DNA from: Deltaproteobacteria bacterium RIFCSPLOWO2_12_FULL_60_19
GTDB taxonomy: Bacteria; Desulfobacterota; Binatia; UBA9968
Reading direction: 5' to 3'
Assembly (NCBI GenBank): GCA_001798595.1
Contig: MGSS01000075.1
Coordinates: forward strand, 1-58,299
DNA length: 58,299 bases
The notes beneath the pieces were generated by a model that searched no databases, was not told the DNA's origin, and worked only from the letters and a program-made list of their open reading frames with translations. Numbering within the stretch: position 1 is the first letter of the stretch; the number at the start of each line of letters is the position of its first letter. Below are positions 2,679 through 41,723 of this stretch, piece after piece. Position numbers and translations under genes: made by a program.

Positions 2679-2694
2679 TCTTCGCCTCCGAGCC

Positions 2695-3585
2695 ATGCCC
2701 ATCAACCTACAGATGGGAGTCTTCTACGCCCTCCTTGCAGGGATACTGTGGGGAATCGGCCCGTTGCTGCTCAAGAAGGGGATGACGCTCTCCAATGTCA
2801 GCGCGGCGACGCTCATCGAGCAGTGCGTCTCGGTCCTCGTGCTTGGAATCCTTGCCGGCTTGCGGGGGGAACTGGTTCAGCTCGACTTCGCGAGCAAAGC
2901 CTTCCGGTTCTTTGCCTTGGCCGGGATCATCGGCGCCAGCTTCGGGAAGATCTTCTATTACAAGGGCATCGACACGGTCGGCGCCTCGAAGGCGACTTCG
3001 GTCAAGAACAGCTCGCCGCTCCTGACGACAATTTTGGCCGTTGTCTTTCTGGGAGAGGATCTCACGCTTCCGATCGCCCTCGGTGTCGTTTTGATCGTTT
3101 TCGGCATCGGGGTGCTTACACGAATGGAGATCAAAGGCGAAGGCCGGCCGAATCGCCTGATATATTTTTTCTATCCGCTCCTTGCGGCGATCTGTTTCGG
3201 TATCAATCCGGTCTTCAAAAAGATGGGAATCAACGCGGCGAATCTTCCCACCCTTGGCTCCTTCACCAGCCAAGCCACGGCCCTGGCCGTCATGCTCACA
3301 GCGGGGCGCTTGCTTAAGATCAAGCCGAAGTGGGAGCCGATCCCGATGAAGAGCCTCGTCTTGTTTTCCGTCTCCGGGATCACGGAAGCTCTGGGATCGC
3401 TGTTTACTTTCTACGCCTTAAGCTACGCGCCGGCGGTGCTGGTCTCGCCGGTCTGGCGCATCTCCCCGCTGGTAACTTTCGTCCTCGCGCGGTTTATGCT
3501 GAAAGGGGTCGAGGTGGTGACGCTGACGGACGGCATGGCCGCCTCCCTGATCGTTGGGGGAATTTTTGTTCTCAGTCTGGGCTAA
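2695..3585 (+). CDS. EamA/DMT family transporter
   Basis: A 296-residue integral membrane protein with about ten hydrophobic helices in two repeats, the layout of EamA (drug/metabolite transporter) proteins. Typical stretches are ALLAGILWGIGPLLLKKG at the start of repeat 1, SSPLLTTILAVVFLGED at its end and SPVWRISPLVTFVLARFMLKG in repeat 2. The start at 2695 (MPINLQMGV) was chosen because the first helix begins just after it. An ATG at 2713 is also possible, and neither has a clear ribosome site. The frame continues upstream to 2479, but that part overlaps the lipoprotein gene. The substrate is unknown. Confidence 0.85.
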   Translation: MPINLQMGVFYALLAGILWGIGPLLLKKGMTLSNVSAATLIEQCVSVLVLGILAGLRGELVQLDFASKAFRFFALAGIIGASFGKIFYYKGIDTVGASKATSVKNSSPLLTTILAVVFLGEDLTLPIALGVVLIVFGIGVLTRMEIKGEGRPNRLIYFFYPLLAAICFGINPVFKKMGINAANLPTLGSFTSQATALAVMLTAGRLLKIKPKWEPIPMKSLVLFSVSGITEALGSLFTFYALSYAPAVLVSPVWRISPLVTFVLARFMLKGVEVVTLTDGMAASLIVGGIFVLSLG

Positions 3586-3595
3586 ACTTTCTTGG

Positions 3596-3940
3596 CTAAC
3601 GCGGATCGCGCGGCGTCATTTCAAAAACCACGCGCTCCAATAGCGGCGGGGAGTCGCGCAAGGTGAGAACGCGCACGCGAAGCTGGTCGTCCACGATCTG
3701 CCGCGACTGGCAGGCCAAACGCTCGCCTCCCGCTCTCACTTCTACGGCGGGATTGTTCAGCATGTTTTGGCACCAGTGTTTGCCCTGAACATTGCTCGAA
3801 GCGGCGTAGAATTTTCCGTCGAGATAAACCATCCTCAACTCCACCGTCCGCGGCAAGCCGGTGCGCCTGCCGACGGTGGTAAGCTCGCCCACGAAGACGT
3901 AACCGTTGCGCAAATTCATGGACTGAATATAGGCTCTCAA
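3596..3940 (-). CDS. nitroreductase/F420-type split-barrel protein, 5' end disrupted
   Basis: The 114 residues contain GELTTVGRRTGLPRTVELR, a short segment, then AASSNVQGKHWCQNMLNNPAVEV, the signature of the deazaflavin-dependent nitroreductase (DDN/DUF385) family. These proteins have a split-barrel fold and bind F420 or another flavin-like cofactor. There is no ATG in a suitable place. A TTG at 3940 can start the frame, but family-like codons (WFTELANKF) continue upstream until a TGA supplied by the end of a MITE-like element at 3979. The native start has therefore probably been displaced or lost, and the gene may be weakly expressed or a recent pseudogene. The C-terminus looks intact. Confidence 0.7.
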   Translation of the reverse strand: MRAYIQSMNLRNGYVFVGELTTVGRRTGLPRTVELRMVYLDGKFYAASSNVQGKHWCQNMLNNPAVEVRAGGERLACQSRQIVDDQLRVRVLTLRDSPPLLERVVFEMTPRDPR

Positions 3941-3978: not shown

Positions 3979-4091
3979 GTCAAAAAGGTCCCAGATACAA
4001 GGCGTGCGAAGGCCTGCGAGCGGAGGCGTACTCCTCCGGTACGTTGACGCGAAGCGGGCCGAGCACAACGCAGCAAATGGGCCTTTTTCAA
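3979..4091. mobile_element. 113-bp MITE/REP-like palindromic element
   Basis: The ends are inverted copies: GTCAAAAAGGTCCC on the left and GGGCCTTTTTCAAC on the right (two mismatches). The middle is palindromic around GGAGGCGTACTCC. It lies in the gap between a minus-strand nitroreductase gene and a plus-strand diiron-oxidase-like gene. A related end, TTTTTCAGCAGCCTGC, occurs at 11032-11047. Its left end provides the stop codon that interrupts the nitroreductase frame. Confidence 0.6.
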
Positions 4092-4162
4092 CGGCCTGTT
4101 GCAGCCTTGACTACGTTTGGTGCGCAAGATAGCGTTGGCACAACCAAGCCGGGAGAAAAAAT

Positions 4163-4948
4163 ATGGAAGCGACGACACCGCAGCTCGGAGTTAAAATGAG
4201 CGTCCAAGAGGCCAAGGCGTACGTGGATGGGATCAACGCCAAGGTGGTGCGACGATGGCAGGAGCGCGTCAACCAGGGTCCGTTCATGCGAGGTCTCAGC
4301 GACGGCAGCTTGCCGCTGCCGGTAATTCGCCTTTTTTTCAAAAACTGGGGCGCCTTCACGATCGAGATCAACACGCTGATCGCCGCCTCGTACCACAAAC
4401 ATCTCGGTTTTTTTAAGCGGCACGCCGATCTGTTGGGGCCGTTCGGCGCCAAGGTGGCCGATGAATTTATCCATCCGAAGCCGCCGGGCCACGTCCTCGT
4501 CATGTTGCAAACCGCCAAGGCTCTCGGACTCTCTGAAGAAGAAGTCCTGCGCCACCCGATGTTGCCGGAGGCGCGCGCGATCCTCGATTTCAAACGCGCT
4601 CTCCTGTGGGAAGGGACGGTGGCGGAGTGGTGGTTTTCGATGCTGACGGAAGAGCCGATCGGCCACTGGGCGGCGGCCTGGTACAAAGCTCTGACCCGCC
4701 ACTACGGCTTTACGCGCGAGCAGGCGATCTATTTTTCCACGCACGAGGAGGCCGATCTCAAAGAGCACGACGACGGCGTGATGGGCCACGGCAGCTTCAA
4801 CCGGGCGGTGATCGAGCGGGTTCTTCAAGACGGCTATGCCGACGTGCGCGAAGGGTACAACCTGGAATACTGCGCGCTGACCGCGGTCGATCTCTACGGC
4901 GTAATGCACCGGGGCGCTTACGAGATCGGAATGGCCGAGAAAAAGTAA
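4163..4948 (+). CDS. TenA/PqqC-like iron-containing redox enzyme (heme-oxygenase-like diiron fold)
   Basis: A 261-residue, all-helical protein of the TENA/PqqC superfamily, usually annotated as iron-containing redox enzyme. Candidate metal ligands lie in conserved blocks: EINTLIAASYHKH, DEFIHPKPPGH, EGTVAEWWFSMLTEEPIGHW and FSTHEEADLKEHDDG. The E...H...E...H plus DxxEH pattern is that of heme-oxygenase-like diiron oxidases. The start at ATG 4163 has GGGAG upstream; a second ATG (residue 12) is possible. A close-family paralogue with the same blocks is at 30881-31678. The next gene, a dienelactone hydrolase, begins 18 bases downstream, so the two probably form an operon. The substrate is unknown. 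Confidence 0.85.
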   Translation: MEATTPQLGVKMSVQEAKAYVDGINAKVVRRWQERVNQGPFMRGLSDGSLPLPVIRLFFKNWGAFTIEINTLIAASYHKHLGFFKRHADLLGPFGAKVADEFIHPKPPGHVLVMLQTAKALGLSEEEVLRHPMLPEARAILDFKRALLWEGTVAEWWFSMLTEEPIGHWAAAWYKALTRHYGFTREQAIYFSTHEEADLKEHDDGVMGHGSFNRAVIERVLQDGYADVREGYNLEYCALTAVDLYGVMHRGAYEIGMAEKK

Positions 4949-29688: not shown

Positions 29689-30720
29689 TTACTTCTTGGT
29701 CGCCACGATGAGCGTCGTTCCGGGCATGGTGCTGGGGATGTCGGCGTGGCTCTCGATTGAGGCGAAGCCGGCGGCTTTGAGCCACCGGGTATACTCGGAT
29801 AACGTCCAGCACTCGCCGCCCGGCGTGTGCGTCAGGGTATAGACAGAGAAGCGGAGCGCGAAGGTGGGCTCGGTGCGCTCTTCGTTGGGCAGGAAGTCGT
29901 TGACGACGAACAGGCCGCCGGGCTTGAGCGCCTTGTAGGCGGCGCGGAAAAGCTCTTGGTTGCCTTCCGGCGATTCGAAGCGGCAGAAGTTGCTGGCGAT
30001 CGCCAGATCGTAAGAGATCTCTTCGATCTTAGCGCTGCGGAACTCGCCGTCGATAAATCGGATCTTTCCCTCCAGGCCGCGCTCGCGATTCAGCTTCTTT
30101 GCGACGGCGTTGACGTTGGGCCAATCGAGCTGTGTGACCTCAGCCGACGGGTCGCGCGTGACAATCGTCATGCCGAAGATGCTCGAGCCGCCGGCGATGT
30201 CTAACACGCGAAGCCCCTTGCGCTTCGCGCCGATTTCCAAAATATCGCACAGCGCCTTCGCCACCGGCTGAGCTATCGGGATGATCCCTAAAACCAGCTT
30301 CTCCCAAACCTCCAGCTCGGTGTTCGTATCCATCCGGCTGAGCGGCTTGCCGGTCTTGAGCGTCTCAATGAGATGGGCCATGCCGTCCCAGAGGGCCAGG
30401 GCGACGTGGCGGAAATCTCCCATGTAAGAGGGCTTGCCGCGCACTAAAAAAGCCTCGCTGATCGGCGTCAGAAAATATTTTCCGTCCCGCTTCTCGATCA
30501 TCGCCAGGGCGAGGAGACCATCGAGGACGATCCGCGTGGCCCTGGGGTCGGTTCCGGCCGCGCGGGCGATCTCTTCGTAGCCGTGAGAGCCGCGGGCGAT
30601 GTGGGTGAAAAAATCGTACTCGATAGCGGCGTTGAGAATCTGGCTGTTGCCGAAATCTCCCAGCAGGCGCATCAGGGGACGGGGGGAGAGGCCCTCTTTC
30701 GTGCTGGCGGACTGACTCAT
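29689..30720 (-). CDS. SAM-dependent O-methyltransferase (acetylserotonin/plant OMT-like)
   Basis: A 343-residue methyltransferase with an N-terminal winged-helix dimerisation domain (residues 15-105: LLGDFGNSQILNAAIEYDFFTHIA) and a Rossmann SAM-binding domain with VLDIAGGSSIFGM in motif I and LKPGGLFVVNDFL downstream. This two-domain form is that of small-molecule O-/C-methyltransferases, such as those in polyketide, bacteriochlorophyll and quinone pathways. It is the last gene of the five-gene minus-strand operon with radical SAM, SDR, oxidase and diiron-like enzymes, so it probably tailors the same product. Confidence 0.85.
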   Translation of the reverse strand: MSQSASTKEGLSPRPLMRLLGDFGNSQILNAAIEYDFFTHIARGSHGYEEIARAAGTDPRATRIVLDGLLALAMIEKRDGKYFLTPISEAFLVRGKPSYMGDFRHVALALWDGMAHLIETLKTGKPLSRMDTNTELEVWEKLVLGIIPIAQPVAKALCDILEIGAKRKGLRVLDIAGGSSIFGMTIVTRDPSAEVTQLDWPNVNAVAKKLNRERGLEGKIRFIDGEFRSAKIEEISYDLAIASNFCRFESPEGNQELFRAAYKALKPGGLFVVNDFLPNEERTEPTFALRFSVYTLTHTPGGECWTLSEYTRWLKAAGFASIESHADIPSTMPGTTLIVATKK

Positions 30721-30734
30721 GATGAAAACGGCTC

Positions 30735-30878
30735 CTTAGGCAATGCAAAATAAAAATTGCAAAATGTAAAAGTAAAAATTACGGACCCGTGTTTTCCGTC
30801 ACTTTGCATTTTTCAATTTGCCATTCGACAAGCTCATGGTGGTGAGCTAGGTCGAACCACAATTTGCCTTTTGAATTG
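30735..30878. repeat. heptamer (TGCAAAA-type) arrays and TTCGAC hairpin
   Basis: GCAAAATAAAAATTGCAAAATG at about 30743-30763 with inverted CATTTTTCAATTTGCC at about 30807-30822 surrounds an imperfect palindrome TTCGACAAGC...GCTAGGTCGAA at 30824-30856. The latter is nearly the reverse complement of 14289-14322. It separates the methyltransferase and diiron-like genes. Confidence 0.7.
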
Positions 30879-30880
30879 AC

Positions 30881-31678
30881 TCACTCGCGGTAGAGGCCTT
30901 CCTTGTTCACGAATTGATAGACGCCTTCGAAGAACCAGGCGAAGTAGGCCTGGCCCATGCGCAGGCAATACTCCAGGCTGAAGCCGGGGCGGGTGTCGGC
31001 GCGACCTTCTTCCAACATTTTTTTCAGCACCATCCAGTCGAGACCCGCGTGCGCCATCACGCCGTCATGCTCTTCGAGGTCCGCTTCCGCATGAACGCGG
31101 AAGTAAACGATTTTCTCCTCGGGGATCTTGTAGGCTTTTCTGAGCGCTCCGCCGAAAAACTTGGCCCAATGGCCGACCGCCTCTTCCACGCAGAACGACG
31201 CCCACCATTCCGCCATCGTGCCTTCGTAAAGCACGCCGCGATAGTATTCCAAAAAGGCGCGGCACTCCGGCAGCATCTCGTACTCGATCATCTCATCGTC
31301 GGTCAGGCCGAAGTTTCTCCCTTGCTCCAACACGATCCGGATATGGCCCGGCGGCGTCGGATGGATCATCTCGTCCGCCACGTGGTTGGCGAAGTGTTTC
31401 TGCAATTCAGGATGGCGCTTGAAAAACGGCAGGTGGCGTTGATAGGCGACGCCGTGGAAGTTATTGATCTCGGCCACAAAGCCGTACCAGTTTTGCCAAA
31501 AAACTTTGATGGCCTCCATCGGCAGGGTTCCCTTGGCCAAATCCGTGTGAAACCGGCCTTTGAATAGCCAGCGGTCCGCCAGCCCCATCAGGTACTTTTT
31601 CAGATCTTCGACCACCGCCTCGGCCTCCTGCGGCGACAATCGCTTGCCGAAATAGTCCTTTTTATAGTTTGCAGCCAT
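30881..31678 (-). CDS. TenA/PqqC-like iron-containing redox enzyme (heme-oxygenase-like diiron fold)
   Basis: A 265-residue all-helical protein sharing motifs with 4163-4948: EINNFHGVAYQRHL, DEMIHPTPPGHIR, YEGTMAEWWASFCVEEAVGHW and FRVHAEADLEEHDGV. The Glu/His/Asp sets match heme-oxygenase-like diiron oxidases, which do oxidative C-C or C-N bond chemistry in several natural-product and cofactor pathways. Good ribosome site AGGAGG. It sits between an FAD-linked oxidase and a methyltransferase in a five-gene operon, which gives it a plausible biosynthetic role. Substrate unknown. Confidence 0.85.
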   Translation of the reverse strand: MAANYKKDYFGKRLSPQEAEAVVEDLKKYLMGLADRWLFKGRFHTDLAKGTLPMEAIKVFWQNWYGFVAEINNFHGVAYQRHLPFFKRHPELQKHFANHVADEMIHPTPPGHIRIVLEQGRNFGLTDDEMIEYEMLPECRAFLEYYRGVLYEGTMAEWWASFCVEEAVGHWAKFFGGALRKAYKIPEEKIVYFRVHAEADLEEHDGVMAHAGLDWMVLKKMLEEGRADTRPGFSLEYCLRMGQAYFAWFFEGVYQFVNKEGLYRE

Positions 31679-31702
31679 GTGTTCCTCCTTGGATAGGTGA
31701 CC

Positions 31703-31730
31703 GTAGGGGCGACCGGCCGGTCGCCCCTAC
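31703..31730. repeat. 28-bp perfect palindrome
   Basis: GTAGGGGCGACCGG is followed immediately by its exact reverse complement. It lies in the 76-base gap between the FAD-oxidase and diiron-like genes. The GTAGGGGCGACC...GGTCGCCCCTAC type is a common intergenic repeat in high-GC bacteria. It could form a very stable hairpin within the operon message. Confidence 0.85.
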
Positions 31731-31754
31731 AACACCTACCGCCTCATGCCTTCT

Positions 31755-33239
31755 TCAAGCCAGCGTTCCCGGATTCAGAATGTTATTCGGATCGACCATC
31801 TGCTTGATCTCTTTTACCAGGTCGTACAGATTCGTCAGTCGTTGATAGGGGTACGGTCCTTTGGTGCTGACCGTCGGCGCGGTCCAGACGACGCCGCGTT
31901 TATTGCTGAATTCCGCCACCATCCCCATCCACTTGCGGAGCTTCGCCACATCGGCGTCGTCGTAAGGATTATAAAAGACAAAATACTCCTCTTTCATCGC
32001 CAGATCGCGAGTCACGTAGCTGTCGTGCTGCGGCGAATGCTCGGGGTCCCACAGGCCGCACTCCCGCTTCGCTGCCTCATCAAGATCGTACATCTCTTTT
32101 AAGAAAACGATCGGGTACATCTTAGAAGTCACGGCGAACATGCCGGTGTGGCGCACGACCGAGCTGCACCAGCCGTCGGGGCCCATGATGTGGAAATCGG
32201 GCCAGCCGTGCAGGCCGTGCTCCTGCGCCTTGGCGCCCATCGACTTCTCCGCGATCTCCCGCACCTCGACCCCGCGCTGCTCCTGGTAGATCTTTCTCAT
32301 CCTTTTCTCTTTGTAAGCCAGCTCTTCGGCGTCGCGCGCGAAGAGGATCGTCTTTAGAAAAAACCAGGCGTCATCGGGAATCTTGGACTTGTCATAGAGT
32401 CCGTCTTCCATCGGCCAATGGTACTGCCAGCGATCGACGAAATGGATGTCGTAGACAACCTCTCCCTTAACCAGCCCCAGCATGGCCTCCTGGATGTTTT
32501 CCAGCTGGTCGCGCCGAAAGCTGTAACAGTAATCGTGCAGCCACTCTCTCCGCCCCTCGATGGCGCGCAGGCAGACTTTGCTGATGATGCCGAGCCCGCC
32601 CGCCGAGAGAGTGAAGAGTCCCATCAAATCGGGGAGATGAATCCATTTCTGAAACGGGCCGAACGTCGTGCCTTGGTTGGCGAGGGCGCCCAAGCGCACC
32701 GTCTCGCCGTTGGCGAGCACGACTTCCAGGCCGATCACCATGTCGGCGATCCAGCCGTAGCGCGTCATGCCGTAGCCGATGCCGCCTTTGCTGATCATCG
32801 CGCCGATCACGACCGAGGGGCCGTAAGTGCCGTAGTTCGGCAGCATCAGTCCGTGCTGCCTCAGCGCGTGGTGGATGCCATAGACGCTCGCGCCCCCTTC
32901 GGCGATCACGTATTGTTGCGTCGGGTTGACCTCGAGAATTTTGTCCATCCCCAGCATGTCGAGCAGGATGCCGCCTTTGAGCGGCGAGCTGATCCCCATG
33001 CCGACGCCGCCCTTGGCGACGATCGGGATTTTGTGCTCGTTGGCGAAGCTCAAAATCTTCGCCACCGAATGGCGGCCGGCTGAGTCGGATTCCACTCTGA
33101 CGATCACATCCGGCAGCGCCTTGTACGCGCCGTAGGCGAGGGTGTGCTGGTAGTTGATCTTGTCGATCGGGTTGGTCGAGACCAGGCGCGGGCCGACGAT
33201 CTCTTTGAGCTTAGAAACGATTTCGTCGAGAGACAGCAT
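31755..33239 (-). CDS. FAD-linked oxidase (VAO/PCMH family)
   Basis: A 494-residue flavoprotein. Residues 40-220 form the PCMH-type FAD domain: PDVIVRVESDSAGRHSVAKI, IVAKGGVGMGISSPLKGGI, GGASVYGIHHALRQHG and GPSVVIGAMISKGGIGYG. The C-terminus ends VDPNNILNPGTL, typical of FAD-linked oxidase C-terminal domains. Family members include 4-cresol/vanillyl-alcohol oxidases, glycolate and alkyl-glycerone-phosphate enzymes. ATG 33239 was chosen; codons upstream are from a repeat array. It lies between SDR and diiron-like genes in the five-gene operon. Confidence 0.88.
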   Translation of the reverse strand: MLSLDEIVSKLKEIVGPRLVSTNPIDKINYQHTLAYGAYKALPDVIVRVESDSAGRHSVAKILSFANEHKIPIVAKGGVGMGISSPLKGGILLDMLGMDKILEVNPTQQYVIAEGGASVYGIHHALRQHGLMLPNYGTYGPSVVIGAMISKGGIGYGMTRYGWIADMVIGLEVVLANGETVRLGALANQGTTFGPFQKWIHLPDLMGLFTLSAGGLGIISKVCLRAIEGRREWLHDYCYSFRRDQLENIQEAMLGLVKGEVVYDIHFVDRWQYHWPMEDGLYDKSKIPDDAWFFLKTILFARDAEELAYKEKRMRKIYQEQRGVEVREIAEKSMGAKAQEHGLHGWPDFHIMGPDGWCSSVVRHTGMFAVTSKMYPIVFLKEMYDLDEAAKRECGLWDPEHSPQHDSYVTRDLAMKEEYFVFYNPYDDADVAKLRKWMGMVAEFSNKRGVVWTAPTVSTKGPYPYQRLTNLYDLVKEIKQMVDPNNILNPGTLA

Positions 33240-33251
33240 TTTTTCGGGTCT

Positions 33252-33377
33252 AATGCAAAATGCAAAATGCAAATTGAAAAATGTAAAATGCGGGAACGGG
33301 ACAGGAATTTAACGACTCAAGCCGGATTTTAAGGAGATTTTGCGCTTTGCCTTTTGCAATTCTCATTTTTCATTTTC
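33252..33377. repeat. heptamer (TGCAAAA) array with inverted arm
   Basis: TGCAAAATGCAAAATGCAAA followed by TGAAAAA and TGTAAAA (33253-33288), period 7, is matched by inverted words CTTTTGCAATTCTCATTTTT (about 33350-33369). The hairpin lies between the SDR and FAD-oxidase genes. Confidence 0.8.
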
Positions 33378-33379
33378 GG

Positions 33380-34150
33380 CTAGAGTTGCAGATGGCTTCC
33401 GCCGGTGACGAGGATATTGCTGCCGGTGATCATATTGGTTTCGTCGCCGGCGAGAAAGGCGATCGTGCCGGCCACGTCCTCCGGGTAGAGGTGCTTCTGG
33501 ATCGGCCGGTTCTTGCGAACTCGCTCCTTGAACTCTTCCGACATGACCGTAGAGGCGTCGGTCAATGTAAACGCCGGCGTGACGACATTCACCGTGATGC
33601 CCAAGGGTCCCAACTCGATGGCCAGGGTCGTTGCCGCCACTTCCAGCGCGGCCTTCGCCGCGGCGTAGGCGCCCAGCCGGGGTAGAGGCTGCTGCGCCAG
33701 GCGGGAGCTTAAAACGACGATCTTGCCCTTTTTCTTTTCGATCATCCCGGGAACGAAAGCGTGAACGCCGTTGTAGAGCGCGCCGAGCTCTTTGCGCGTA
33801 GCCTCCTCGAACCCATGCCAAGAGATTTGGTGCAGCGGAGCGATCTCAAAGGGGAAGAAGGCGTTGTTGATGAGAACATCAACCTGGCCGAGCGTTTTTT
33901 CCACCGCGCGGCGCATGTCGTCGACCTGGGCCTGGTCGGTGACATCGGCCTGAAAGACCATCCCCTTCGCGCCCTCTTTTTCCACTTCGTTGAGGACCTC
34001 AAGCGCGCGTTCGCGGTTCTGTAGGTAGTTCACCACCACCGACGCGCCGCAATGAGCGAGGCGCTTGGCGGCGGCCGCGCCGATGCCCCGGCTCGCTCCG
34101 GTAACGAGAACAACTCTGCCTGACAGAGGCTGGCGTCCGTCTTGTTCCAT
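33380..34150 (-). CDS. short-chain dehydrogenase/reductase
   Basis: A 256-residue SDR. The cofactor loop is VTGASRGIGAAAAKRLA (residues about 16-32), followed by FQADVTDQAQVDDM and LINNAFFPFE, and the catalytic pair in LGAYAAAKAALEV (Y-x-x-x-K). It is of classical length and NAD(P)-dependent. It starts 18 bases after the radical SAM gene and precedes the FAD oxidase, in the five-gene operon. The substrate is not predictable. Confidence 0.93.
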   Translation of the reverse strand: MEQDGRQPLSGRVVLVTGASRGIGAAAAKRLAHCGASVVVNYLQNRERALEVLNEVEKEGAKGMVFQADVTDQAQVDDMRRAVEKTLGQVDVLINNAFFPFEIAPLHQISWHGFEEATRKELGALYNGVHAFVPGMIEKKKGKIVVLSSRLAQQPLPRLGAYAAAKAALEVAATTLAIELGPLGITVNVVTPAFTLTDASTVMSEEFKERVRKNRPIQKHLYPEDVAGTIAFLAGDETNMITGSNILVTGGSHLQL

Positions 34151-34168
34151 AGTCGCGCCGGATCGGAG

Positions 34169-35650
34169 TTAGATCGCTACGGCGTCTTCAGCCGCGCCCT
34201 TTTCGTATTTCGCCGCGTTCTCTTTGAACGAGAGAAACTTCATCCGCACGTAGGGCGAGCTGTAGCCGTTCAAGATCCGCTCGATCCTGCCCGGCTTGCT
34301 GTAGAAGGCCTGAAAAGCCCAGCCGGTCAACTGTCCCAACTGTTGCCGCGTCAGATGTTTCGTCGGCATGACGCCGTGCTCCAGGTCGTAGAGGCTCATG
34401 TCGTCGATCTCGATGTTGTTTTCCTTGACCGCGCGCTTCCAGATCGGAGAGCCGGGTATGGGATTCAGCAGCTGGATCATCACGATGTCCGGGTCGATTT
34501 CGTCGACGGCCTTGAAACGTTGTCGGATCTTCGCCGCGTCGTCTTCCCAGAAGCCGTTGAGATAGGTCGCCACCGTCGAGATATCGTTCCGGCGCAGAAA
34601 GCCGATGATCTCTTTTAATTCTTTGACGCCGACTTTCATCGGCCCTTTATGCGCCTCCGCGATCTCCTCGTCGGTCCCTCCATCGATCCCGATCAGCACC
34701 TGATACATCCCGACCTTGCGCAGCCGGGGAATGAGGTCCATGTCCCGGATAAAGTTCTGGGCGCGCCCGAGACAGAACCAGCTCATGTCGAGTTTCTTTT
34801 GCTCCAACGCCTCGACCAGATCGACCATCTTCCGGCGGTCGGAGTTGAAATCGTCGTCCATGAAAGTGAGCGCCTTGACGCCGTATTTTCGGTGCAGCAG
34901 CTCCATCTCTTCGGCGATCTTTTTGCCGCCGCGGGTGCGGTGAGAGCTGAAGTCGCGCGGGCTCCGCGGATCGACCAGCCACCACTCGTAGCAGAAATGG
35001 CACGCGCCTTCGCAGCCGCGCGAGGTCACCGCCTCGTTGTAGTTGGGAATAACGGAGTAACCACAATACCGGTCCATCGGGAACAGATCGTAGGCCGGCG
35101 CGGGCAGCTCGTCGAGATTGGTGATGAGCGGTCGCGGCGGGTTGAGAACGACCTCGGCGCCGTTGCGCCAGCAGAGTCCTTTGATCCCGCTCAATTTCGG
35201 CGCGGGTTGCTTGAGCTCGTCCAGTAGTTCCGCCATCGTATATTCGCAATCGCCAAAAACGGCGACGATCGCGAAATCGAGCTGCGGGTTTTCCCGCATC
35301 AGCTTCTGCGGGATCGCCGTGTACATGAGTCCGCCGGCGACCGTGACGGTTTTGGGCGCGATTTCCTTGATGCGCTTCATCGCCGCGTGAAAGCGAGTGA
35401 GCTGGGCCGCGCCGCCGGAAGCGGCGATCATGTTGCCGAAGAAGACGGCGTCGGGCTTTCTGCGCCGCACCTCTTCGAACATCTGCTCGTCGTTCAGCTC
35501 CAGGGCGCGACAGTCCAGGACTTCAACGTCGGCGCTCTTTTTCTCGCGAACGAAGGCAGCCAGTTGGGCGTGGAGCGCGTTGGTTGCGAGGTGGCGGTCG
35601 CCCCAGGGGGCCCAGTTTCCCATTGGCGGTGTAATGAATAGAAGTTTCAT
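34169..35650 (-). CDS. B12-binding-domain radical SAM protein
   Basis: A 493-residue protein. Residues 1-165 fold like a cobalamin-binding domain (LLFITPPMGNWAP, PDAVFFGNMIAAS, VTVAGGLMYTA); the cobalamin-His motif DxHxxG is not seen. The radical SAM cluster is C213-E-G-A-C217-H-F-C220. The segments YGVKALTFMDDDF and GMYQVLIGIDGGTDEEI are typical barrel strands of this class, related to hopanoid/Mg-protoporphyrin/methyltransferase-like enzymes. It is the first gene of the five-gene operon. B12 uptake genes lie directly on the other side of this locus. Confidence 0.9.
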   Translation of the reverse strand: MKLLFITPPMGNWAPWGDRHLATNALHAQLAAFVREKKSADVEVLDCRALELNDEQMFEEVRRRKPDAVFFGNMIAASGGAAQLTRFHAAMKRIKEIAPKTVTVAGGLMYTAIPQKLMRENPQLDFAIVAVFGDCEYTMAELLDELKQPAPKLSGIKGLCWRNGAEVVLNPPRPLITNLDELPAPAYDLFPMDRYCGYSVIPNYNEAVTSRGCEGACHFCYEWWLVDPRSPRDFSSHRTRGGKKIAEEMELLHRKYGVKALTFMDDDFNSDRRKMVDLVEALEQKKLDMSWFCLGRAQNFIRDMDLIPRLRKVGMYQVLIGIDGGTDEEIAEAHKGPMKVGVKELKEIIGFLRRNDISTVATYLNGFWEDDAAKIRQRFKAVDEIDPDIVMIQLLNPIPGSPIWKRAVKENNIEIDDMSLYDLEHGVMPTKHLTRQQLGQLTGWAFQAFYSKPGRIERILNGYSSPYVRMKFLSFKENAAKYEKGAAEDAVAI

Positions 35651-35771
35651 GTGTTTCTCCTAACCGGCCGGATACTTCGCCCCAAAATAGTTAATACGTA
35701 AACAATTGTCAAGGTGGGCTGCTGCCGGGCCCGCTGTTGACAGGGGAACCAGAGTGCGGGAAAAGAGAAAG

Positions 35772-36494
35772 ATGCTTTCACTTTTACAGGCGATTAAGTT
35801 CCTTACAGCCGCTCCGTGGCCGACAAGCAGGGAGGCGGCGCCGCAAGAGGTGGCACAGTCCGCCGCCTTTTTCCCCTTGGTCGGATTCTTTTTGGGGATC
35901 GTGCTGGTCTTGGTGGACCGCCTGTTGGACCCTTATCTCGCCTCGGAGATCCTGAGCGTTGTGCTGGTCACGGTTCTCATATTCGCGACGCGCGCCGCGC
36001 CTCTGGCCGATCTAGCGAGCACCTGGGATCAGTTAGCCCCGAGGAAAAACAGGCCCCTTGCCGGTTCGCGCATAGGCCCAGATTTGGGTCTGTTCGGTTT
36101 ACTGGCGGTCCTGGTAGTCATCGCTCTCAAATTTCGCGCTATCGAGGTAATGGGCGAAGCGCGCGCCCCCGGTCTGTTGTTGGCGCCGGCCCTGGGGCGC
36201 TGGGCGATGGTGGTGCTGGGTTACGGTGCGAGTTCTACGGGCGAGGATGAACAGGAAATCGACGTAGACGGTATCAGGGGTAAGCAGTTGATTCTGGCAA
36301 CTGGCTTGCTGCTGTGCGGCGTCTTCCTGATCGCCCGGCGGGTGGGGCTTTGGGTGGCGTTATGGGTTTCGCTCTTGGCGCTCGGGAGCCGGTACCTACT
36401 CCACCGCCGACTGGGCGGAGTCGCTGGGAAAAATCTCGGCGCGGTCGCGGAGATGAGCGAGGCGCTGGCATTTGTTCTCTTTGCCACCCTTTAG
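35772..36494 (+). CDS. CobS-like membrane protein, divergent (adenosylcobinamide-GDP ribazoletransferase family)
   Basis: A 240-residue, about six-helix protein. It aligns with CobS over MLSLLQAIKFLTAAPWP, AAFFPLVGFFLGIVL, SRIGPDLGLFGLLAVLVVIALK and GGVAGKNLGAVAEMSEALAF. CobS joins adenosylcobinamide-GDP to alpha-ribazole using Mg2+. The usual acidic motifs are changed: the HLDGLADTADG loop reads APLADLASTWDQ, KDSRIG reads AGSRIG, and TGD reads AGK. Most Mg ligands are therefore lost, and the protein may be a non-catalytic relative. ATG 35772 is chosen over an upstream in-frame start for lack of coding look there. It heads the cobalamin block. Confidence 0.7.
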   Translation: MLSLLQAIKFLTAAPWPTSREAAPQEVAQSAAFFPLVGFFLGIVLVLVDRLLDPYLASEILSVVLVTVLIFATRAAPLADLASTWDQLAPRKNRPLAGSRIGPDLGLFGLLAVLVVIALKFRAIEVMGEARAPGLLLAPALGRWAMVVLGYGASSTGEDEQEIDVDGIRGKQLILATGLLLCGVFLIARRVGLWVALWVSLLALGSRYLLHRRLGGVAGKNLGAVAEMSEALAFVLFATL

Positions 36495-38275: not shown

Positions 38276-38304
38276 TTGACAAGTTTTTTCGCGCGGTGTA
38301 CTTT
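38276..38304 (+). promoter_or_regulatory. promoter of first cobalamin riboswitch transcript
   Basis: TTGACA (38276-38281), a 17-base spacer and TACTTT (38299-38304) lie just upstream of the riboswitch, which would begin near the expected transcription start. Confidence 0.7.
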
Positions 38305-38314
38305 TCTCTTTACT

Positions 38315-38465
38315 CTAAGCTCCAGGGAAGTCCGGTGCAAATCCGGCGCGGTCCCGCCACTGTAATGGCGACGAAAGCCGCAAGTTAAGCCACTGTGCGC
38401 CTTAGGCGCGCGGGAAGGCGCGGCGAGTAGAATCAAGCCAAAGCCAGGAGACCTGCTTAGAACGC
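38315..38465 (+). ncRNA. cobalamin riboswitch 1
   Basis: Consensus blocks are present in order: GGAAGTCCGGTGCAAATCCGG, then GCGGTCCCGCCACTGTAA, GCCACTGTGCG, GGGAAGGCGCGGCGAGTAG, and AAGCCAGGAGACCTGC. It precedes the TonB gene. A small GAGAA/TTCTC hairpin followed by seven T residues at about 38491-38510 may be the expression platform (transcription termination). Binding of adenosyl- or other cobalamin should lower expression. Confidence 0.95.
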
Positions 38466-38546
38466 GTTAACCGGCCTCTCCGGGAGAGAGAGAAAGGTTC
38501 TCATTTTTTTCCTCCAACTCTCGTTGAGGCCGGATGAGAAGCTCCG

Positions 38547-39386
38547 ATGAAGCTTTGCTCGTCTCTGTTGATTTCTGCGATGTTTCACGCCGCCGTGCTG
38601 TTACTGCCGCCGGCGGGGTTTGAGCCTCGCCCCCAGGAGCTTATTCCCGTGGTCGTCCTGGGTGTCGCTGAAGGTGATGGTTCGACCTTGCTCACCACGG
38701 GGGAGGGTGGTGGGGGCGGTGCATCTGGCGCAAAACCGCAAGGCAATGGAGCGCCGGAGCAGCGGACAGTGAAAAAGGCGCCAGCCAAAAGCGAAGCTGT
38801 CGCGCCAGCCGGCGACGGAGTGGGTACGCTACTCGCTTCCGCACAGATGGCGGTCAAAACTCAGGTGGCGCTGGAGGCTGTGAGCGACGTTGGGATCGCC
38901 GTGGCGGACGTCAGCGGGAATGGCGCAAGTCAATCTCGTGTGAGTTCCGCGCCGGCAGACGGTCAGGCTGGTGAGGCGGGATTTTCCGCGGGCGGCGCCG
39001 GAACGGGTGGAAACGGGAGCGGAATCGGCGCGGCGGGAACCGGCAACGGACTCGGCTTAGCAGGGGACGGGCATGGCGGAGGAGGGCTGGGCGTAACGCC
39101 AATCTATGCCGGAGTGAGTTACGCGCACACGCCCAAACCGGCCTATCCCGAAGAGGCCAGAAAAGCAGGCTGGGAAGGGACTGTGATACTCGGTGTCCTG
39201 GTGGATGTTGGAGGGAAGGCGGAAAAAATTGAGATCAAAGGCAGTTCCGGTTACGCGCCGCTCGATCAGGCGGCGGTGGAGGGTCTCAAGCGGTGGCTTT
39301 TTCGTCCAGCGCGCTACGGCGAGAGAGCGGTGGAGAGTTGGGTGAAGATTCCGGTCGTTTTTCAGTTGGCTGAAGTCAAAGATTAA
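38547..39386 (+). CDS. TonB family energy-transducing protein
   Basis: A 279-residue protein with one N-terminal membrane segment (CSSLLISAMFHAAVLLLP), a long low-complexity periplasmic spacer rich in Gly, Ala and Ser (e.g. GGAGTGGNGSGIGAAGTGNG), and a C-terminal TonB domain (PKPAYPEEARKAGWEGTVIL, then LDQAAVEGLKRWLFRPAR). The spacer is Gly-rich rather than the Pro/Lys-rich spacer of classical TonB. It energises outer-membrane receptors with ExbB/ExbD, which are not in the window. It is controlled by riboswitch 1 and sits before the TonB-dependent receptor. Confidence 0.9.
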   Translation: MKLCSSLLISAMFHAAVLLLPPAGFEPRPQELIPVVVLGVAEGDGSTLLTTGEGGGGGASGAKPQGNGAPEQRTVKKAPAKSEAVAPAGDGVGTLLASAQMAVKTQVALEAVSDVGIAVADVSGNGASQSRVSSAPADGQAGEAGFSAGGAGTGGNGSGIGAAGTGNGLGLAGDGHGGGGLGVTPIYAGVSYAHTPKPAYPEEARKAGWEGTVILGVLVDVGGKAEKIEIKGSSGYAPLDQAAVEGLKRWLFRPARYGERAVESWVKIPVVFQLAEVKD

Positions 39387-39433
39387 CCGTCTAACTCAAT
39401 TTTAAGGAGGCAAACAGAAGCGATCTTATCAAC

Positions 39434-39665
39434 CGCAGGTGGATGTACGGGAAAGGGGTGAAAATCCCCTGCTGCCCCGCAACTGTGACGGCCACGAAAG
39501 CCGCACTGAGCCACTGTGCGCCTCAGGCGCACGGGAAGGCGCGGCGAGTAGGACTGATCGTGATCGTGGATCGTGACCGTGTTCGTTCAAAGAAATTTAC
39601 GAGCACGAGGGACGAGCACGAACACGACTAAAAAGCCTAAGCCAGGAGACCGGTCCTTCCTGCCC
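39434..39665 (+). ncRNA. cobalamin riboswitch 2, with repeat insertion
   Basis: Blocks GCAGGTGGATGTACGG, GGGGTGAAAATCCCC, GCCCCGCAACTGTGA, GCCACTGTGCG, GGGAAGGCGCGGCGAGTAGGA and AAGCCAGGAGACCGGTC are in order. Compared with riboswitch 1, about 70-80 extra bases (39555-39630) lie between GAGTAGGA and AGCCAGGAGACC. It precedes the TonB-dependent receptor. An AAGGAGG lies upstream at 39404-39410 without a following start codon. Confidence 0.92.
39555..39630. repeat. short-period repeat hairpin inside riboswitch 2
   Basis: GATCGTG-type words (TGATCGTGATCGTGGATCGT) followed by loop bases and ACGAGCACGAGG/GAGCACGAACACG words. The two halves pair imperfectly, and the word family matches 16915-16975. 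It occupies the variable peripheral-stem position of the aptamer. Confidence 0.75.
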
Positions 39666-39674
39666 TAACAACTT

Positions 39675-39701: not shown

Positions 39702-41723
39702 ATGTTCTCGATCTTTCTTTTTTTCATTTCGGTTTTACTTTCCACTTTCGCCTACGCCGCGGAGCCGAGCCAGGAAGAGAGCCTGCCGTCGGTCGTGGTG
39801 ATCTCCACCAGACTCCAAGACGTCGAGGAGGAGGCATCCAAGGTTCCGGGCAAAGTCATCGTCATCACAGCCGAGGAGATTCAGCGGCTCGGCGCGAAAA
39901 CCGTGCAAGAGGTCCTCCAGTATCAAACGGGTGTCGTCCTCTACGATCAGATCGGCAACGAGTTTCAGCCGACGATAGATTTTCGAGGCTTCAACGGCCA
40001 GCCGGTCCCCGCCACCGCCGTTTTCCTGGACGGCGTCCGCGTCAACGAGCCGGACTTCAACTCGACAAACTTCGATCTCATCCCGATCGAAGATATCGAA
40101 CGGATCGAAATTATGCCGGGGACGGCCACAGTTTTCGGGCGCAATGCCCTGGGTGGAGTGATCAACATCAGAACCAAACGGGGCCGGAAAGACAAGCCCC
40201 ATGTCGGATTGGAGATCGGCGGAGGCAGTTATGGCCGGCAGAAATATTCCTTCACCTCGGATGGGCCGCTCCCGCTGGACAAGTTCGATTACTACGTCGG
40301 TACGACGCGCGAGCTGACCGACGGATTTCGCGAGGCGTCGGGAGGCCGGATTACCCGTATCTTCGGCAAGCTAGGTTTCAGGTATGAAGATAAAACCGAC
40401 GCGACGCTTTCCTACACGCACGTCGAGGATCACCTCAAGCAAGCCGGCTCTCTGCCCGCCAGCCGTCTTCGCCGCGACTACAACGATAACCTGACCCCCG
40501 GGGATTTCTCGAACAGCAATCTTCACCTGGTTGCGCTCAACGTGCGGCAGAAGCTGTCCGCGGGCTTCTCCCTTGCGCTGAACGGTTTTGTCCGGATGAA
40601 CGACCAGGAGTCGTTTGTCAGGGGCCTCTCCAGCGTCTCAACGCTCCTGACAGAAACGACCTCCGGCGGCACTACGATCCAGGCGACGCACGACGGCGTC
40701 ATTCTCGGCAGGAAGAACCTTCTCAGTCTCGGCGCGGAATATACCCGCAACCGCTTCGACATCGTCAACTCCGGCCTTTTCTTCCCGGCCTTTTCCTTCC
40801 TTACTCGTCAGTCGACCAAGGAAGACGTCGCCGGAGCTTACCTCACCGACAGCTTCACTCTCTTTGACTCGCTGGTTCTGAGCGGCGGTGTCCGCTACGA
40901 CTGGGACCGGTACGATTTTACCGATAAGATCGACCCGGCGCTCAGCGGGGGAAAAATTTTCCGTCGGGTAAGTCCCAAAGCGGGCCTCGTCTTTACGCCC
41001 ATTAAGGATTTAAGCTTCTCATTCAACTACTCCGCGGGAGTCAGAATGCCGACGGTCAGCGAAATCTTTGCGCAGGGACCGTTCGTTTCCAATCCCGACC
41101 TCGTGCCGATGACGAGCCGCAACTTTGAGCTTGGGGCCAAGGGCAAAATCGCGGATTGGCTGGAGGCTTCTCTTGCCCTGTTTTACATGCCGGTCAAGGA
41201 CGAGATTCTTTTTGTGATCACCGACCCGGTCAACTTCTTCGGCCGGAATGAAAACATCAGCAGCACGCTGAGAAAGGGCATCGAGCTTTCACTCAAAGGA
41301 CGCTACCGGAAGTGGTTCGACGCTTTTCTGAACTACACCGTGACGAAGGCCACCTTCGAGACCGACGTGCTCTTATCGTCGGGGCAGGTTAAAAAAGGCG
41401 ATGAACTTCCGATGGTTCCGCGCCATCGCGTCGGCCTTGGCATCAACCTCCATCCCGTGGAAGATCTGACGATCTCCATATTGGGAAGCTATGTCGGCCG
41501 GCAATTTTTTCTCAACGACGAGCCCAATCGATTCACAAAGCTGGAGGACTACTTCGTCCTTGGCAGCCGGGTCAGCTATCGGTGGAAGGACCTCACCGGC
41601 TATCTTATGGTGAACAATCTCACCAATCAAAAATACTCGACGTCCGGTATCAAGGTGGCCCAGCCCTTCGTTGTGCCCGCTCCCAGGATCAACCTGTTTG
41701 CCGGTTTGATTTATCGCTATTGA
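39702..41723 (+). CDS. TonB-dependent outer-membrane receptor (probable cobalamin/corrinoid transporter)
   Basis: A 673-residue protein with a signal peptide (FFISVLLSTFAYAA), a TonB-box-like LPSVVVIST near residue 28, a plug domain (KVIVITAEEIQRLGAKTVQEVL, IEIMPGTATVFGRNALGGVINI, residues about 45-165) and a 22-strand barrel region ending INLFAGLIYRY with the C-terminal aromatic. Control by a cobalamin riboswitch makes uptake of cobalamin or a related corrinoid the most likely role, analogous to BtuB, although overall similarity to any named receptor was not tested. It lies just after tonB-like and before cobalt-transport-like genes. Confidence 0.92.
   Translation: MFSIFLFFISVLLSTFAYAAEPSQEESLPSVVVISTRLQDVEEEASKVPGKVIVITAEEIQRLGAKTVQEVLQYQTGVVLYDQIGNEFQPTIDFRGFNGQPVPATAVFLDGVRVNEPDFNSTNFDLIPIEDIERIEIMPGTATVFGRNALGGVINIRTKRGRKDKPHVGLEIGGGSYGRQKYSFTSDGPLPLDKFDYYVGTTRELTDGFREASGGRITRIFGKLGFRYEDKTDATLSYTHVEDHLKQAGSLPASRLRRDYNDNLTPGDFSNSNLHLVALNVRQKLSAGFSLALNGFVRMNDQESFVRGLSSVSTLLTETTSGGTTIQATHDGVILGRKNLLSLGAEYTRNRFDIVNSGLFFPAFSFLTRQSTKEDVAGAYLTDSFTLFDSLVLSGGVRYDWDRYDFTDKIDPALSGGKIFRRVSPKAGLVFTPIKDLSFSFNYSAGVRMPTVSEIFAQGPFVSNPDLVPMTSRNFELGAKGKIADWLEASLALFYMPVKDEILFVITDPVNFFGRNENISSTLRKGIELSLKGRYRKWFDAFLNYTVTKATFETDVLLSSGQVKKGDELPMVPRHRVGLGINLHPVEDLTISILGSYVGRQFFLNDEPNRFTKLEDYFVLGSRVSYRWKDLTGYLMVNNLTNQKYSTSGIKVAQPFVVPAPRINLFAGLIYRY

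Follow-up and report, generated by a model that had tools for sequence, protein, structure and literature searches.

The genes considered here lie at positions 29689-35650 of a 58,299-nucleotide stretch of DNA from Deltaproteobacteria bacterium RIFCSPLOWO2_12_FULL_60_19 (contig MGSS01000075.1), which is called the window below. They are predicted to encode a cobalamin-binding radical S-adenosylmethionine (SAM) enzyme (rSAM), a short-chain dehydrogenase/reductase (SDR), an FAD-linked dehydrogenase (FADox), a haem-oxygenase-fold protein (HO) and a SAM methyltransferase (OMT). Among described systems, the dihydroxyacetone phosphate (DHAP) shunt and 5-deoxyribose salvage use MtnP or MtnN-MtnK with MtnA and Ald2, or DrdK-DrdI-DrdA. 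A variant of the DHAP shunt that employs a phosphorylase has been described (PMC10986504), as has 5-deoxyribose salvage (PMC6079011), and a third paper presents 5'-deoxyadenosine as both a by-product and an inhibitor of radical SAM enzymes (PMC8102628). For dimetal enzymes of the haem-oxygenase fold, a review gives a ligand set of three histidines and three carboxylates and describes a ligand-bearing helix as flexible (PMC13108848).

The locus resembles each of these in part. A second operon, on another contig, unites a nucleoside phosphorylase, an MtnA-like isomerase and a class II aldolase as in the DHAP shunt, but its 508-residue isomerase is distinct from a second MtnA-type protein, its aldolase is fused to an SCP2 domain, it is led by an iron-sulphur (Fe-S) protein (CCG), and it has an operator in common with the radical SAM operon. 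FADox and CCG pair a VAO-type flavoprotein with a CCG-domain Fe-S partner, as in GlcD-GlcF, LctD and LdhH, and in one genome their genes overlap. They differ from GlcD-GlcF in that the scores stay far below the equivalog cut-offs (FADox 86.2 against 567.9 bits for GlcD, its nearest NCBIfam model among the matches listed; CCG 34.4 against 333 bits for GlcF) and in that the partner is usually on another contig. The B12-binding and radical SAM domains of rSAM are those of BchE and HpnJ-type enzymes, but every NCBIfam model among the matches listed is far under its cut-off. HO is predicted to have the fold and the three-histidine, three-carboxylate set of the haem-oxygenase-like dimetal oxidases CADD, UndA, BesC and SznF, from which it differs in its low CADD score and in lacking a sequence match in the PDB at E up to 0.1. 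In the collection searched, the literature on Binatota or Binatia radical SAM enzymes, their biosynthetic clusters and this enzyme combination yielded no description of the operon.

We give an even chance to the reading that the five genes are one half of a lineage-specific two-operon regulon, in which an rSAM/methyltransferase operon is joined by an operon for an Fe-S partner and for nucleoside disposal of the DHAP-shunt type. The two are treated as one unit because they share an operator and because, in genus g251, the CCG gene has been relocated.

A conserved five-gene operon

Judged from its sequence, the block is one operon conserved across most of one bacterial family. In the window, which corresponds to contig C75 of a 4.19-Mb genome in 162 contigs, five open reading frames (ORFs) follow one another on the minus strand in the order rSAM-SDR-FADox-HO-OMT:

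34169..35650, minus strand: rSAM, predicted cobalamin-binding (class B) radical SAM enzyme, the operon's first gene (PF02310, PF04055)
33380..34150, minus strand: SDR, short-chain dehydrogenase/reductase (PF13561, 183.4 bits)
31755..33239, minus strand: FADox, VAO/GlcD-type FAD-linked dehydrogenase (PF01565, 102.7 bits)
30881..31678, minus strand: HO, haem-oxygenase-fold protein, probable dimetal oxidase/oxygenase (PF03070, PF14518)
29689..30720, minus strand: OMT, dimerising SAM methyltransferase, BchU/O-methyltransferase-like (PF00891, Methyltransf_2; PF08100, dimerisation domain)

An earlier note on this DNA had placed a same-strand block of five genes here, and its family names agree with Pfam for each protein. 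It had also reported no nonribosomal peptide synthetase, polyketide synthase or precursor peptide, and none was seen within or adjoining the operon. The intergenic gaps from rSAM to OMT are 18, 140, 76 and 160 bp. The three larger gaps contain repeats that recur elsewhere in the genome and widen them here. A 28-bp palindromic GC-rich repeat at 31703-31730, between FADox and HO, is present on several contigs, and AT-rich repeats at about 30741-30870 and 33243-33374 also recur.

When 58 genomes of relatives were searched for rSAM at E up to 1e-60, it was found in 24, namely 23 of the family's 25 genomes, counting this one, and G418, from another family of the order; the 9 other genomes of the order gave no match, nor did 23 from the rest of the class. 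In 16 of the 24, again counting this genome, all five genes are present with order and strand unchanged, although some genes are incomplete in three of the 16 (OMT is cut in G404, OMT is cut and rSAM frame-shifted in G417, and rSAM is cut in G395). The contig ends inside the operon, with the order agreeing up to that point, in G402, G408, G411, G415 and G418; the remainder of the G408 operon is on a second contig, and G418 has the first four genes up to the contig end. The order is departed from in three of the 24: G399 retains rSAM-OMT, in G412 the genes are spread over three contigs as rSAM, OMT and SDR-FADox, and in G396 rSAM stands by itself. In 13 of the 16 full operons the HO-OMT spacing lies between a 5-bp overlap and a 4-bp gap. 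Parts of the gap table, and the promoter sets, lack loci that are truncated by a contig end, and for L057, L112 and L113, where spurious long ORFs confused the ORF tables, tblastn positions were used instead.

Conservation across genera had been set beforehand as a test of the operon, and the 16 full operons with the partial one of G418 bear it out. The opposite outcome, that only close relatives keep the genes together, does not hold across genera, although all finds lie in one family and G418. Median identity to the window is 86% for HO (16 loci), 84% for FADox (17 loci) and 80.5% for rSAM (21 loci; orthologues 75-84%), and is lower for OMT (78%, 14 loci) and SDR (66.5%, with a span of 63-75% across 18 loci); individual values run from about 63% (SDR) to 91% (HO). 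The flanking genes have medians of 79% (RtcB, 4 loci), 73% (DHH phosphoesterase, 10 loci) and 59% (archease, 7 loci). By this measure rSAM, FADox and HO match or surpass both RtcB and the DHH phosphoesterase. This conservation and the presence of rSAM in 23 of 25 family genomes make a flexible secondary-metabolite cluster unlikely, and the operon looks like a core trait of the lineage instead.

In a sample of 395 genomes of the phylum, FADox matches at E up to 1e-40 were confined to this genome, G198 and G077, whose FADox is a distant relative (199 bits). A scan of public genomes with two short peptide patterns, the reach of which is limited to close relatives, gave 19 loci, of which 15 are titled Deltaproteobacteria and one each Proteobacteria, Candidatus Binatia, Syntrophobacter sp. 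and Candidatus Tectomicrobia.

A second operon and its iron-sulphur protein

The comparison with relatives does not support the view that the five genes are self-contained, as a second operon shares their operator and carries the likely Fe-S partner of FADox. It encodes a MarR protein, CCG (GlcF-like Fe-S), a nucleoside phosphorylase (PNP_UDP_1), the MtnA-like isomerase, the class II aldolase/SCP2 protein and an acyl-CoA ligase, so that PF01048, PF01008 and PF00596 occur together in one operon. In this genome its first two genes lie at:

Contig C147 (locus L110), 4021-4461: MarR
Contig C147 (locus L110), 2690-3916: CCG

A CCG orthologue of at least 258 bits is present in 20 of the 27 genomes searched. 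At all ten CCG loci fetched, the phosphorylase, isomerase and aldolase follow CCG directly and the SCP2 domain of the aldolase is aligned to its end; the acyl-CoA ligase comes next in nine (L110 is cut by a contig end) and MarR stands ahead in nine. Besides the GlcF score given above, CCG reaches 142.4 bits against a cut-off of 385 for TfrB and 100.4 against 800 for LdhH. The isomerase bears HCN and GAD..NGD motifs, which we take to be catalytic, and lies above the cut-off of the wider subfamily TIGR00524 (201.8 against 185.85 bits). It scores at least 562 bits in 21 of 25 family genomes, and 7 genomes searched from outside the family gave no match of that strength; the separate MtnA-type protein, 30-39% identical to it, is encoded elsewhere in 24 of the 25.

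FADox and CCG are on different contigs in every genome with both except G412, a member of g251. There (contig C636, L089), CCG begins 4 bp inside the FADox stop, behind SDR, and in the two genomes of this genus that were read (L131, L132) the second operon is without CCG but otherwise complete. The distant FADox of G077 also has a CCG-type neighbour. In G399 and G407, two more genomes of g251, both FADox and a good CCG match are missing. At about position 4570 of L090 (JACPCT010000267.1), a run of N joins a near-copy of L089 to the rest of a scaffold that bears the title Candidatus Tectomicrobia. As this scaffold may be chimeric, its SDR-FADox-CCG is not counted as a separate lineage.

A proposed shared operator

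The promoters of both operons contain a palindromic putative operator, GTTWA-N4-TTAAC, a 14-bp inverted repeat. Upstream of rSAM in the window the elements are:

35707..35712, minus strand: -35 box TTGACA (sequence and position)
35690..35703, minus strand: putative operator GTTTACGTATTAAC, in the -35/-10 spacer; the sole GTTWANGYNTTAAM match in the 4.19-Mb genome
35684..35689, minus strand: -10 box TATTTT after a 17-bp spacer (sequence, by eye)

TTGACA occurs in 21 of the 21 rSAM upstream regions used. The operator occupies the end of the 17-bp spacer in this genome and, in many CCG promoters, directly follows a -10-like box recognised by eye; both positions would suit a repressor.

The repeat was first noticed by eye in the rSAM and CCG upstream regions, among which no exact inverted 6-mer recurs, and a weight matrix was then used to test it. 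A matrix built from 17 rSAM promoters only gave a mean of 13.6 bits on the ten CCG promoters (range 8.8-20.5), as compared with a mean of 3.4 (sd 3.2, maximum 13.57) on 600 two-base block shuffles and with means of -2.2 to 2.8 and single maxima of 5.1-9.3 on seven other upstream sets from the same loci. Four loci (L065, L066, L053 and L061) were kept out of the training and scored afterwards, L059 was excluded as its upstream region reads N, and in L019, L048, L049 and L064 the training 14-mer is at a different place from the others. As the training 14-mers had been picked with a consensus drawn after both sets had been seen, the test was repeated window by window. For this, 21 rSAM promoters, now including the four loci kept out before, were aligned on TTGACA and scanned at every second 14-bp window; z was 5.3-6.4 for the operator windows (+8 to +14) and at most 3.0 elsewhere, the -35 box included.

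Exact matches to GTTWANGYNTTAAM in G398 number two in 5.4 Mb and are the rSAM and CCG promoters, while G409 has three (rSAM, CCG and one other). Over eight genomes (about 40 Mb), 7 of 19 distinct pattern sites fall in these two promoters, a figure that is not independent since the pattern was drawn from both sets. G418, which is without CCG and isomerase matches, also has no clear site (3.9 bits; a single case).

A possible role for the two operons

In the two-operon regulon that we favour, a repressor, perhaps the linked MarR protein, would bind GTTWA-N4-TTAAC and switch both operons. rSAM and OMT would build or modify a small molecule, leaving 5'-deoxyadenosine and S-adenosylhomocysteine as by-products, and SDR and FADox would oxidise that molecule further, FADox handing its electrons to CCG as GlcD does to GlcF. 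HO would contribute an O2-dependent step. The second operon would take SAM-derived nucleosides through phosphorolysis, isomerisation and aldol cleavage to DHAP and an aldehyde. As 5'-deoxyadenosine inhibits radical SAM enzymes, the pairing of a disposal operon with an rSAM/methyltransferase operon is coherent.

Several observations weigh against this regulon. The DHAP-shunt role of the second operon is suggested by family membership only, the isomerase is below the cut-offs of PRK05720 (255.2 against 271) and TIGR00512 (224.2 against 279), and neither an SCP2-fused aldolase nor a FadD-like ligase belongs to the described DHAP shunt. The CCG frame of G412 is shifted near residue 303, by assembly error or decay. 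Three genomes with FADox, namely G395, G405 and G418 (93, 87 and 81% complete), have no good match for CCG, the second operon of G395 being cut by a contig end, and CCG occurs without a FADox match in G396, G402 and G414, of which G402 has a FADox fragment at a contig end; all genomes with such a mismatch except G395 are at most 87% complete. G418 has no match for CCG or the MtnA-like gene and no clear operator. Genus g251 lacks HO (0 of 3 genomes), and two of its members, G399 and G407 (91 and 71% complete), also lack FADox. As to the operator, 12 of the 19 distinct pattern sites in the eight genomes are elsewhere, although these may be chance occurrences as a reversed control pattern gives 0-12 matches per genome; the best site of the first matrix in L111 is not the operator, which is weak there (8.8 bits) and in L117 (8.2 bits). 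Finally, presence throughout the family makes co-occurrence by itself weak evidence.

If the regulon is real, a cobalamin radical SAM enzyme and a haem-oxygenase-fold oxidase stand at the centre of a core pathway common to most of a family that is represented here by metagenome-assembled genomes alone. Its co-regulation with nucleoside disposal would suggest that these bacteria make provision for the waste of radical SAM chemistry. With the operator, the Fe-S partner and the set of eleven genes in hand, the idea can be tested directly.

Other explanations

A rather improbable alternative is a catabolic operon for an aromatic or other growth substrate, in which HO would be an oxygenase that cleaves a ring or chain, SDR, FADox and CCG the dehydrogenases, and the second operon would degrade nucleosides or a similar sugar phosphate. 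In its favour, among the paralogue loci listed, the HO paralogues of L021 and L027 lie near UbiD-type decarboxylases, that of L021 also near a DHDPS-family aldolase and that of L027 near a cupin, and the window copy at 4163-4948 lies near a dienelactone-hydrolase gene; the last gene of the second operon is an acyl-CoA ligase, and a transport-permease family is found in 18 of 25 loci around the five genes. Against it, importer and regulator are both absent inside the operon, and three of its five genes equal or exceed RtcB in conservation. Catabolic pathways, moreover, seldom include a cobalamin radical SAM enzyme and a methyltransferase.

A bolder idea, which we think improbable to a greater degree, makes both operons a single adenosylate-and-truncate route that uses the ribose of SAM to extend a molecule by two carbons. 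The radical SAM step would attach a 5'-deoxyadenosyl group to an acceptor, perhaps a lipophilic one, and the phosphorylase would remove adenine; the MtnA-like enzyme would isomerise the sugar phosphate and the SCP2-aldolase release DHAP, so that the acceptor gains a two-carbon aldehyde. SDR, FADox-CCG, HO, OMT and the acyl-CoA ligase would then finish the chain. It is the SCP2 domain of the aldolase and the FadD-like ligase that leave room for this route.

A cobalamin-related role, such as the making of a lower ligand (Bza-like), seems quite implausible. It is prompted by the genes beside the operon in the window:

35754-36494: CobS, divergent from the operon (PF02654, 70 bits)
38300-38474 and 39404-39672, plus strand: tandem cobalamin riboswitches (Rfam)
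38547-39386: TonB gene, after the first riboswitch
39702-41723: TonB-dependent receptor gene, after the second riboswitch

L050 is similar, with riboswitches and TonB/receptor-type genes one transporter gene from the operon. The earlier note was thus right about a bordering cobalamin-uptake block, but the link is local and not generally conserved, since only two of the five sequences given to the Rfam search (the window and L050) have the riboswitches and many relatives have other neighbours. In those relatives a divergent permease of the SsuC/TauC type, whose family occurs in 18 of 25 loci, lies upstream with a UPF0182 gene (11 of 25), and a DHH phosphoesterase-archease-RtcB group lies downstream. 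The window retains the DHH-archease-RtcB side with a small insertion and has CobS and the cobalamin block on the other. With this unconserved neighbourhood and a BzaD model score of 82 against 450 bits, lower-ligand synthesis was rejected.

A remnant or variant of bacteriochlorophyll or other Mg-tetrapyrrole synthesis is very improbable. The best NCBIfam matches of rSAM and OMT, among those listed, are BchE and BchU, and homologues of bchE and bchU are listed for the Binatota phylum in one study (PMC8262859), but both scores are far under the curated cut-offs (169.6 against 481.35 and 34 against 276.1 bits). BchH, moreover, was not found in any of the eight family genomes searched, in a search that on controls gave matches in 5 of 14 genomes, 3 of them above cut-off, and the Binatota study reports neither bchM nor a reaction centre (PMC8262859). 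The low BchE and BchU scores and the BchH result in eight genomes led us to reject this reading; rSAM- and OMT-like genes might account for some of the bchE and bchU homologues reported in that study (PMC8262859). A hopanoid side-chain route, hinted at by HpnJ/HpnG-like matches, was likewise dropped (HpnH is above cut-off in only 2 of 26 genomes, not including this one, and HpnJ scores 110.6 against 577.6 bits), as was a role in defence, for which PADLOC gave weak generic matches of OMT and rSAM only.

That five unrelated genes with separate transcripts stand together by chance is scarcely credible in spite of the 140-160 bp gaps in this genome, given the order kept in 16 of 24 genomes, the HO-OMT overlap or gap of at most 4 bp in 13 of 16, and the genome-wide repeats in the wider gaps here.

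The encoded proteins

None of the five proteins reaches the cut-off of an NCBIfam family among those listed, which for SDR were the best 25 of 235. Assignment of rSAM to class B is based on a B12-binding domain (PF02310, 43.7 bits, cut-off 32.1) and a radical SAM domain (PF04055, 43.1 bits, cut-off 29.5) with a CxxxCxxC motif at residues 213-220 (CEGACHFC from 213), and BchE is its nearest NCBIfam model among the matches listed. A solitary paralogue, 56% identical, is encoded on contig C20 of the same genome (L020, 9321-10781, minus strand) and also in 9 other family genomes. The lone rSAM of G396 (L053, 8733-10229) adjoins a UbiD-type gene and has a strong operator-like site upstream (18.0 bits). 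SDR has the motifs TGASRGIG and YAAAK (162-166).

The FADox start was corrected to ATG 33239, which is that of the homologues (alignment A1); TTG 33272 is unconserved. Its PDB relatives are p-cresol methylhydroxylase (66.2 bits) and LctD (64.7 bits), and its substrate half barely fits FAD-oxidase_C (21.6 bits). A structure model of FADox, with a pLDDT of 43, was not used.

For OMT, the nearest NCBIfam model among the matches listed is BchU. All 14 aligned OMT orthologues read CRFES (alignment A4) where the PDB relative 2r3s has LHHFD, the histidine of which is presumably the usual O-methyltransferase base. As OMT lacks this histidine, methyl transfer directed to carbon, sulphur or an acid is possible.

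HO matches PF03070 (TENA_THI-4, 31.8 bits) and PF14518 (Haem_oxygenas_2, 30.6 bits), both above cut-off, and among the NCBIfam matches listed the nearest is CADD (27.8 against a cut-off of 200 bits). Against the PDB its sequence gave nothing at E up to 0.1 and, up to E 10, apparently unrelated chains only. A structure model built from 13 orthologues (pLDDT 80.9) is closest to CADD (Z 23.1; 2.1 A over 212 residues), followed by PqqC (Z 21.7) and UndA (Z 20.9), so the modelled protein has the alpha-helical haem-oxygenase fold expected of the haem-oxygenase-like dimetal oxidase (HDO) family. Residues E103, H112, E165, H196, D200 and H204 are invariant in 10 of 10 sequences, comprising two operon HO copies and eight paralogues (alignment A6), and their order and conservation point to them as the three-histidine, three-carboxylate ligand set. 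The stretch 200-209 of the model is poorly predicted and includes two of the three ligands expected on the flexible helix. A specifically UndA-like HO, proposed from an ExxH ligand pair, was dropped because H106 is unconserved in the paralogues and H112 is conserved. In a test for mobile or viral spread made with HO only, there was no plasmid match and no relative in viral contigs. Nine HO-family matches are present in this genome at E up to 1e-30. One of them, a second HO-family gene of the window (4163-4948, plus strand), 40% identical, stands upstream of a dienelactone-hydrolase gene (PF01738).

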